Part shown: in pieces, positions 26,607 through 28,305 of the stretch
Layout of the letters: each line of letters starts with the position of its first letter
How positions within the stretch are numbered: the first letter of the stretch is position 1
Assembly (NCBI GenBank): GCA_903857665.1
Contig: CAIOFV010000043.1
Coordinates: forward strand, 62,001-126,000
Direction: 5' to 3'
Length of the DNA: 64,000 nt
Source of the DNA: an uncultured Myxococcales bacterium
Lineage (GTDB): Bacteria > Myxococcota_A > UBA9042 > DTJE01
Notes under the pieces: generated by a model
Seen by the model: only the letters and a program-made list of their open reading frames with translations
What the model was told of the DNA's origin: nothing
Databases searched by the model: none
Program-made: the position numbers and the translations under genes

Positions 26607-27113
26607 ATGTTCCGGTCCCGTGCAACGGTGGTCCTTGCGGTGGCGGTCGTCGTGGCGGCCCTGCCGGCCCGCGCGGCGCCATCGACGGCCCCGCACGTGC
26701 AGGCCCCGCTGGCCCTTTCCCTGGACGTGACCGCCCGCGGCGACGCCGTCGAGGTGACCGCGACCGTGTCGGCACGGGGGCGCCTGGCGGCGGCTCCGGT
26801 CCTGCGGATGCTGCTGCCCGAGGGCGCGACCCTCCTGGAAGGGGCGGCCGAGGAGGCCCTGATCGTTTCAGGTGACGGGGGCGACGTGGTCCGTCGGTTC
26901 GCGGTAACGGGCCTGGGATCCGGGCGCCTGCGACTGACCGCTGACGCCGTGTCCGATGCCTCGGGAGCCCATGCCGAGGCCTCCTGGCCGCCGTTCGAGG
27001 CCGATCGGCTCCGGGTCGCCCCGCGCACCGAATCCATCCCGCCCGTGACCGTGGGCGGCGTCCGGATCGACCACGCCATCCCCCTTGCTCCCGCGAAGAG
27101 GCAGGTCCCATGA
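26607..27113 (+). CDS. exported protein of unknown function
   Basis: 168 residues beginning with a signal peptide (MFRSRATVVLAVAVVVAALPARA). The mature part looks like a single immunoglobulin-like or DUF11-type beta domain: alternating hydrophobic strands such as LALSLDVTARGDAVEVTATVS and LRMLLPEGATLLEG, without Cys or an obvious catalytic motif. The ATG at 26607 has GGGAGG five bases upstream. It lies 38 bases after the metalloprotease and overlaps the next gene by ATGA, so it belongs to a three-gene unit with a protease and a PIG-L deacetylase. Function not recognised. Confidence 0.65.
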   Translation: MFRSRATVVLAVAVVVAALPARAAPSTAPHVQAPLALSLDVTARGDAVEVTATVSARGRLAAAPVLRMLLPEGATLLEGAAEEALIVSGDGGDVVRRFAVTGLGSGRLRLTADAVSDASGAHAEASWPPFEADRLRVAPRTESIPPVTVGGVRIDHAIPLAPAKRQVP

Positions 27114-28099
27114 AGCACTTCCCGCGGTCCCGCGTCTGCCCCTGGCCCGGCGCAGTCCTCGCCCCGACCACCCGCGTGCTGGTGGTACTGGCCCATCCCG
27201 ACGATGAAATCGCGTGCGGCGGCCTGGCCCAGCGCCTGCCCCCGACCGCGCGGTTCCTGTGGGTGACCGACGGCGACGCCCTGGCCGAAGGCGCCGGGCT
27301 GCGGCGGCCCGAGTACGCCGCCGCCCGCCACCTCGAAAGCGAGGCTGCCATGGGCGCCATCGGCGTGTCCGTGGACCGGTTGCGGTTCCTGGGCAACAGC
27401 GAGGTCGGGATCTTCGAGGCCCTGGCCCGATGCGCGGCGAAGCCCAACGCCCGCCACGACGTGTTCGAGCACGCCCGGTCGCTGGCGCGCCAGATCACGG
27501 CCGAAGTGCTGGCCTTCCGGCCCGAGGTGGTCTTCACGGTGGCATGGCAGGGCGCCCATCCCGTGCACGACCTCGTCCACCTGCTGGTTCGTCACGCGCT
27601 GCGGCCGCCCGAGCACGGAGGCTGCGGCGAGGGATTGCGCATGCAATCCCTTGCCGCAGCCGGAGTCGCCTCGGGCCGATCCAACATTCGCCTGCCCGAC
27701 ACGCTGCTGTTCGAAATGCCGCTGTTCGATCCATGGGGCGTGCTGCCGCTGCGGTTCCCCCCGTGGCACCAGGGCCCGGTCCACGAGGTCCGGCTGACGT
27801 CCGACGAGGCGGCCGCCAAGCGGCGCATGACGCGGTGCTGGCCGTCGCAGGACGTCGTCCTCAAGCCCCTCGAGGCGATCGTGACGGTGGCCGGCGGCAT
27901 CGCAGCGCTGGCCGGGCATCCCTTCGACCTCGATTCCCTGCTGGCCGTGGAGCGATTCGCACCCGTGCCGCGCGATCGGGACTACGTGAAAAGCCCCCAC
28001 GGGTTCGAGTTCCTGGATCACCCGCTGGAACGCTGGCAGGGGGCGCGCATCTCCCATTCCGCCTCCATCGCTCCCATCGCCCAGGCGCTGATGGCATAG
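27110..28099 (+). CDS. PIG-L/LmbE family deacetylase carrying an in-frame palindrome
   Basis: A 329-residue PIG-L-type zinc deacetylase with VLAHPDDEIACGG (His and Asp zinc ligands) near residues 27-40 and a GAHPVHDLVH segment around 147-155 that supplies the later His ligand. There is no signal peptide. It is larger than the 217-residue paralogue at 2.2 kb. Around residues 171-184 the sequence GCGEGLRMQSLAAA is encoded by a 19-base-pair-stem inverted repeat (27620-27661), which looks like an inserted palindromic element. Translationally coupled to the exported protein upstream. Substrate unknown; N-acetyl sugars, or small thiol precursors as in MshB/BshB, are options. Confidence 0.82.
   Translation: MKHFPRSRVCPWPGAVLAPTTRVLVVLAHPDDEIACGGLAQRLPPTARFLWVTDGDALAEGAGLRRPEYAAARHLESEAAMGAIGVSVDRLRFLGNSEVGIFEALARCAAKPNARHDVFEHARSLARQITAEVLAFRPEVVFTVAWQGAHPVHDLVHLLVRHALRPPEHGGCGEGLRMQSLAAAGVASGRSNIRLPDTLLFEMPLFDPWGVLPLRFPPWHQGPVHEVRLTSDEAAAKRRMTRCWPSQDVVLKPLEAIVTVAGGIAALAGHPFDLDSLLAVERFAPVPRDRDYVKSPHGFEFLDHPLERWQGARISHSASIAPIAQALMA
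27620..27661. repeat. 42-base palindromic element inside the PIG-L gene
   Basis: The left arm 27620-27638 and right arm 27643-27661 are inverted copies of one another over 19 positions with a single G/T mismatch, closing on a GCAT loop. The core reads GGGATTGC-GCAT-GCAATCCC. It keeps the host reading frame open. I did not see a second copy in the window. Confidence 0.8.
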
Positions 28100-28144
28100 C
28101 GCAGGCAGGACCGCCCCGACCCCATCGGGGACACGGCTATCCCA

Positions 28145-28305
28145 TCGTACCCGTACCCGTACCCGCGCGCTCTGGCCCCATCGGGAACGGGCACGGGGAC
28201 GGGGCGGGGACGGGGACGGGAACGGGGACGGGGACGGGAACGGGGACGGGCACGGGGACGGGGCGGGGACGGGGACGGGAACGGGGACGGGCACGGACGC
28301 TCAGC
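28145..28305. repeat. G-rich hexanucleotide microsatellite
   Basis: Three TACCCG units (about 28149-28167) precede, from about 28186, an array of GGGGAC, GGGAAC and GGGCAC hexamers with two pentamer interruptions (GGGGC). A larger unit, GGGCAC-GGGGAC-GGGGC followed by four more hexamers, occurs twice. The array lies between the PIG-L stop at 28099 and the lipoprotein promoter at 28323. The runs of three or four G every two bases could fold into G-quadruplexes. Not coding. Confidence 0.85.

Follow-up and report, generated by a model that had tools for sequence, protein, structure and literature searches.

How does a deacetylase gene come to carry a near-perfect inverted repeat within its reading frame? 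The question arises in a 64-kb window, by which we mean the whole 64,000-nucleotide stretch of DNA analyzed here, from an uncultured Myxococcales bacterium. A first-pass annotation of the window reported a 42-base inverted repeat with 19-base arms and a GCAT loop, in frame in a PIG-L gene, and it is present exactly as stated. The two arms (27620-27638 and 27643-27661) are 19 nt each and 95% complementary; no other long spaced inverted repeat in the window comes close to this complementarity. The surrounding 82 nt, folded as single-stranded DNA, reach -33.7 kcal/mol, compared to -20.6 ± 2.6 for shuffled sequences (z = -5.15; none of 200 shuffles was as low). The gene and its insert are laid out as follows:

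27110..28099, + strand: PIG-L deacetylase gene hosting the element (329 aa; PF02585, E 9e-15)
27602..27685, + strand: 84-bp in-frame insertion encoding 28 residues, with edges uncertain by a few bases; orthologues are without it
27607..27676, + strand: 70-nt hairpin unit of the repeat family (GCCCGAGCACG...CGGAGTCGCCTCGGGC), defined by the alignment of copies and the covariance model
27620..27661, + strand: the palindrome first reported, which is the apical part of the hairpin

We aligned the PIG-L protein with orthologues from two genomes of the same genus (G001 and G002) and two of another genus (G005 and G011). Residues 165-192 are missing in all four, and the flanking residues and DNA are contiguous across the gap. 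The suspicion that the block is foreign to the PIG-L core and absent from orthologues was therefore sound, but the block comprises 28 residues rather than about 14. Similarly, the palindrome was correctly located, but the real unit is a 70-nt hairpin in an 84-bp insertion, not 42 bases. Codon usage changes at the same place, with a score of +7.0 before the block, -3.9 in its middle, and +10.3 after it. The host gene retains both its N-terminal HPDDE motif and its later HPVHDLVH motif, and the codons flanking the insert have a dN/dS of approximately 0.16 relative to G002, a value that spans the whole time since the split. A search by sequence found no relative of the protein in the PDB. Just 3' of the gene, at window positions 28120-28300, the + strand is G-rich and contains short GGGACG-type repeats, preceded by CCCGTA repeats; the GGGACG-type run could form a quadruplex.

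The simplest account of the block would be an ordinary, lineage-specific stretch of PIG-L coding sequence that is palindromic by chance. Being in frame and free of stops, the block has the appearance of such a stretch. However, it is missing from the four orthologues, the codon-usage score drops inside it, and about 120 relatives of it lie elsewhere in the same genome, mostly between genes. The refuting condition stated in the first-pass annotation, turned on the idea of an ordinary coding stretch, goes against it, and we give this account practically no weight.

Those relatives were found in several ways. When the core motif was run against the genome of origin (G000; 173 contigs, 93% complete; the window is C43:62001-126000), 10 places, counting the window copy, agreed with it at a tolerance of up to 3 mismatches in 34 bases, and a reversed control had none. 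A DNA search of the same genome found 45 places, nearly all of them over one same stretch of the query. We then trained a covariance model on 67 distinct copies; the counts it gives are lower bounds, since it scores a limited number of candidates. It matched at least 121 places in the genome of origin and at least 118 in G002, a same-genus metagenome-assembled genome (MAG; CAINDP01) of about 270 contigs, bearing out the expectation that copies exist elsewhere in the genome and in relatives. Copies are arranged head to tail in arrays with a period of approximately 81-90 bp in both genomes, and the nearest non-tandem copies are a median of 96% identical.

Beyond these two genomes, the family is hard to find. 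In the third genome of the genus, G001, the covariance model has one weak match (E 8e-7), perhaps an old copy or the family's source. Across 49 further genomes from the same family, order, and class, the model had no matches, and when 84,980 species genomes were scanned with a pattern, CAINDP01 ('uncultured Myxococcales bacterium Loclat_bin-06029') was the sole hit. No copies occurred in the viral contigs or plasmids searched. The window and six element loci had no Rfam match at gathering thresholds, and no prior description appeared among the open-access papers listed for Myxococcales REP and MITE sequences. As far as tested, the family is confined to one genus. A left-half pattern gave 27 hits against 7 in the control in another genome of the same bacterial family (G007), in which the covariance model finds none; this excess may reflect a distant related repeat or base composition.

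The aligned copies define the architecture of the hairpin. The unit ends in GCCCGAG...CTCGGGC, and its stem is interrupted by two symmetric internal loops, each with 5'-C GNA G-3' opposite 5'-C GNA G-3'. In the window copy, the basal loop lies immediately outside the palindrome:

27617..27619, + strand: left half (GGA) of the basal C-GNA-G / C-GNA-G internal loop
27662..27664, + strand: right half (GGA) of the same loop

Across the 67 copies, the basal loop is almost invariant at its outer positions (left half, G in 67 and A in 66; right half, G in 65 and A in 66), and the upper loop is nearly so (G in 60 and A in 60 in one half; G in 65 and A in 67 in the other). The middle base of GNA varies, and in the basal left half all four bases occur. 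In the window copy and three relatives, three Watson-Crick pairs (TGC/GCA) replace the upper loop, which accounts for the 19-nt arm that was first noticed. By established nucleic-acid structure, an unpaired N.N in GNA/GNA loops can be framed by sheared G.A pairs, and the element's C-GNA-G loops may fold in this way.

Pairing in the stem is strongly conserved in the face of sequence change. In the covariance-model alignment, 96.3% of cells are paired, compared to 29-43% in slid controls. Both sides have changed at 10 of the 24 hairpin pairs, and 92 cells are compensated, compared to 27 ± 3.5 in shuffles. Columns 29-42, for example, hold A-U in 40 copies and U-A in 26; at columns 32-39, the split is 41 G-C to 24 C-G. 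We conclude that hairpin pairing is maintained, either by selection or by the copying process.

Seventeen element sites in the genome of origin could be aligned with G002, the sister species. The element is recognizable in both species at a single site (L018); the other 16 are without it in G002, indicating that the element has been mobile. At two of these (L028 and L052), the G002 sequence looks like a decayed remnant by eye, although an HMM gives no confirmation. Insertion lengths read from the alignments are 84 bp in PIG-L and 81 bp in each of two other genes, encoding an HD-domain protein (L030) and a HAD-like protein (L237). An intergenic insertion (L027) and one at a gene end on the other strand (L045) each measure 77 bp, and further insertions are approximately 78 bp (L239), approximately 84 bp (L245), and, in a gene, 66 bp (L241).

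These comparisons also bear on the quality of the assemblies. Misassembly or contamination of a MAG might produce both repeats and apparent in-gene copies; both genomes are fragmented, at least one is a MAG, and two contigs (C68 and C71) end inside element arrays. However, the family appears in two separate assemblies, and most of its sites, flanked by orthologous sequence, differ between them. Moreover, the lengths of in-gene insertions are multiples of three, with host domains resuming in frame. An artifact of this kind is very improbable.

A functional RNA or protein-binding site deserves more consideration. The family might act as a regulatory RNA, an mRNA stabilizer, or a terminator, and be kept for that intergenic role with in-gene copies as by-products. 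Most copies do lie between genes (51 of 72 in the genome of origin and 46 of 58 in G002), several sit just upstream of ribosome-binding sites, and the strong covariation and conserved GNA/GNA loops are what such a role would leave. Set against this, copies occur in every orientation relative to neighboring genes, only 1 of 17 sites is common to both species, and the element is absent from the rest of the bacterial family. It matches nothing in Rfam and has no T-run of an intrinsic terminator. We therefore regard maintenance for an intergenic function as unlikely and favor a mobile element.

Two short motifs adjoin the hairpin in the window:

27600..27606, + strand: 5' flank motif TGCGGCC (family consensus roughly YTGNNCC)
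27677..27686, + strand: 3' tail CGATCCAACA (family consensus CGATCCAATG)

In the 77 single copies, position -2 of the 5' flank is C in 66, and positions +3 to +10 of the 3' tail are significantly conserved. The conserved tail is part either of the element or of its preferred target. A similar motif already exists at some of the empty G002 sites, including L237 (ACATCCACAAC) and L045 (TCATCCAGTGT), with a combined p of only 0.013; the empty PIG-L site is without it. The left flank resembles the tail slightly more than permuted pairs do (4/500), which lends weak support to target duplication; a clear 9-base repeat accompanies the insertion at L027, and none is seen at PIG-L. Because apparent insertion lengths span 66-84 bp and target duplication is weakly supported, the ends of the element cannot be fixed to the base. 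The tail also suggested an integron attC site, a candidate we dropped since the left flank is without a paired core site.

Which enzyme could move such an element? High-copy, mostly intergenic hairpins with tandem copies and a short conserved flank motif are reminiscent of REP/REPIN families, which are moved by a Y1 transposase (RAYT) and could land in genes at times. Indeed, G002 contains one Y1_Tnp gene. However, no Y1_Tnp gene was found in the genome of origin, despite its 121 or more copies, or in G001. Around the G002 gene lies a different repeat (GTGGGACAGTCACC), and no significant element was detected by nhmmer in the 20-kb stretch that holds it. In addition, the foot of the hairpin reads CC|GCCCGAG rather than carrying a GTAG/GGAG tag. 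We consider a REP/REPIN family quite unlikely and reject RAYT as the mobilizer, given that Y1_Tnp is missing from G000 and unlinked to the element in G002. The Y1/RAYT-type gene itself (L135:14800-16000, on G002 contig C82) is flanked by unrelated repeats of its own, AAGTGGGACAGTCACC, which occur in both orientations. Movement through an RVT_1 reverse transcriptase is not supported either: G002 contains none and G000 one fragment, while the element-poor G001 contains five.

To see where copies sit, we called genes with a finder that had learned codon usage from the window. Of the 145 copies left once duplicates were removed, 19 lie strictly inside genes and have good coding scores to either side. 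According to comparisons with Pfam and the PDB, the element interrupts domains that can be followed on each side of it, namely HD_3, Pkinase (twice), the HHH_6 domain of DnaE, and transketolase. The DnaE insert is 49 residues long and falls between Taq residues 881 and 884, and an APH-family phosphotransferase is interrupted just after its domain. Thus the behavior proposed in the first-pass annotation, that of the palindromes of Rickettsia and Wolbachia, is seen in other copies, which lie in frame inside unrelated genes. Its broader suggestion of a new family of coding-compatible mobile palindromes in this lineage holds for the family, its mobility, and its in-frame copies, but most copies are intergenic.

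The 19 internal copies are not spread evenly over the six frames of the element: 10 use +f1, 5 use -f1, 3 use +f2, and 1 uses -f0. Fifteen of 19 in two frames corresponds to P = 6e-5, which is optimistic because the two frames were picked after inspection of the data. Stops do not cause the bias, since the unused frames are almost equally stop-free; of 91 copies, 4 have stops in +f0 and 2 in -f2, which are unused, compared to 1 in +f1 and 9 in -f1, which are used. The frames do differ in the peptides they encode. Small and polar residues make up 0.77 of -f1 and 0.72 of +f1, followed by 0.65, 0.54, 0.41, and 0.33 in the others. Arg accounts for 36-42% of residues in the unused frames, whose mean charge is +7 to +9. 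The predicted peptides are PEHAGAGDGF..SLAAAGVASG on one strand and PEATPAPAR..SPAPACSG on the other. Peptide character, small, polar, and linker-like in the used frames, explains the frame bias.

Individual loci illustrate the range of settings. At L242:1995-2145 (G000 contig C10), a protein ends in two tandem in-frame copies with a period of 81 bp: its C-terminus reads PPERAGEGDGFPKETLAVDEAASGRSN and then runs into the second copy. An in-frame element occupies the extreme N-terminus of an argininosuccinate-synthase-like protein at L054:379-448 (G000 contig C113; MPEPI[HPSTQAQAMGF...]HPIVLAFSGGLDTSF), although the start codon may instead lie after the element. At L039:1994-2560 (G000 contig C105), the element is antisense in a small Cys-rich protein, with GGTGCGGGCAG repeated on both sides.

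Taken together, these results make it highly probable that the window copy is a non-autonomous mobile palindromic element of approximately 77-84 bp, with a 70-nt hairpin core, that survives in frame in PIG-L. It would have entered the gene after the split from the sister species. The movement would occur in trans, with the element probably single-stranded and folded into its hairpin. The mobilizing enzyme may recognize the conserved C-GNA-G/C-GNA-G loops and insert the element next to a short ATCCAA-like motif. Selection would then purge gene-wrecking insertions, and in-gene copies would persist if their length and phase keep the frame and their peptide is a soluble linker of small and polar residues. 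The data show the spread of the family, its mobility, its in-frame survival, and its frame bias; the trans mobilization, the single-stranded step, the target motif, and the loop recognition are inferred. More tentatively, and with somewhat less than even confidence, we suggest a single-hairpin element of a new type, in which an enzyme reads the tandem C-GNA-G/C-GNA-G loops and an ATCCAA-like target and which is a recurrent source of benign 27-28-residue linkers outside the Rickettsiales.

Protein-coding palindromes are known chiefly from the reduced, AT-rich genomes of intracellular Rickettsiales, where their tolerance can be attributed to relaxed selection. The family described here is high in copy number, its host genome measures 5-6 Mb, and a sister species has empty sites; no such setting is therefore needed for the phenomenon. 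The family also provides a natural experiment on the peptides that proteins tolerate, as two of six frames hold most in-gene insertions, and it raises a testable question about the enzyme that mobilizes it.

The closest parallel in behavior is with the palindromic elements of Rickettsia (RPE) and Wolbachia (Ogata et al. 2000, 2002, 2005, as described or cited in PMC2229807 and PMC10969869), which are small, non-autonomous, hairpin-forming palindromes found between genes and in frame in many unrelated conserved genes. In both cases, a many-copy hairpin palindrome adds a short peptide in frame to unrelated genes whose orthologues are without the insert. However, RPEs are given as 105-146 bp in PMC2229807, whereas the present element measures approximately 77-84 bp with a 70-nt core. 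Its host is a Myxococcales-lineage bacterium, not one of the Rickettsiales, with a 5-6 Mb genome that is GC-rich in the window. Unlike RPEs, the family has GNA/GNA loops, an ATCCAA-like tail, approximately 120 or more copies per genome, and a preference for two frames, one per strand. It works like RPE, a likeness of behavior drawn from descriptions rather than from compared sequences; because host and length differ, we do not file it as a member.

With REP, REPIN, and BIME sequences, the family shares high copy number, mainly intergenic hairpins, and tandem arrangements. Unlike REP/RAYT systems, it has neither a linked Y1 transposase nor a GTAG/GGAG-type tag at its foot, and its 19 strictly in-gene copies of 145 set it apart from the essentially extragenic REP. 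Miniature elements such as ERIC, Correia/NEMIS, and RUP are likewise small, non-autonomous, and built on inverted repeats, and PMC2229807 notes open reading frames in ERIC and the 107-bp Correia element. In contrast to these MITEs, the present element is without TA ends or a clear target duplication, and nearly its whole unit is one hairpin.
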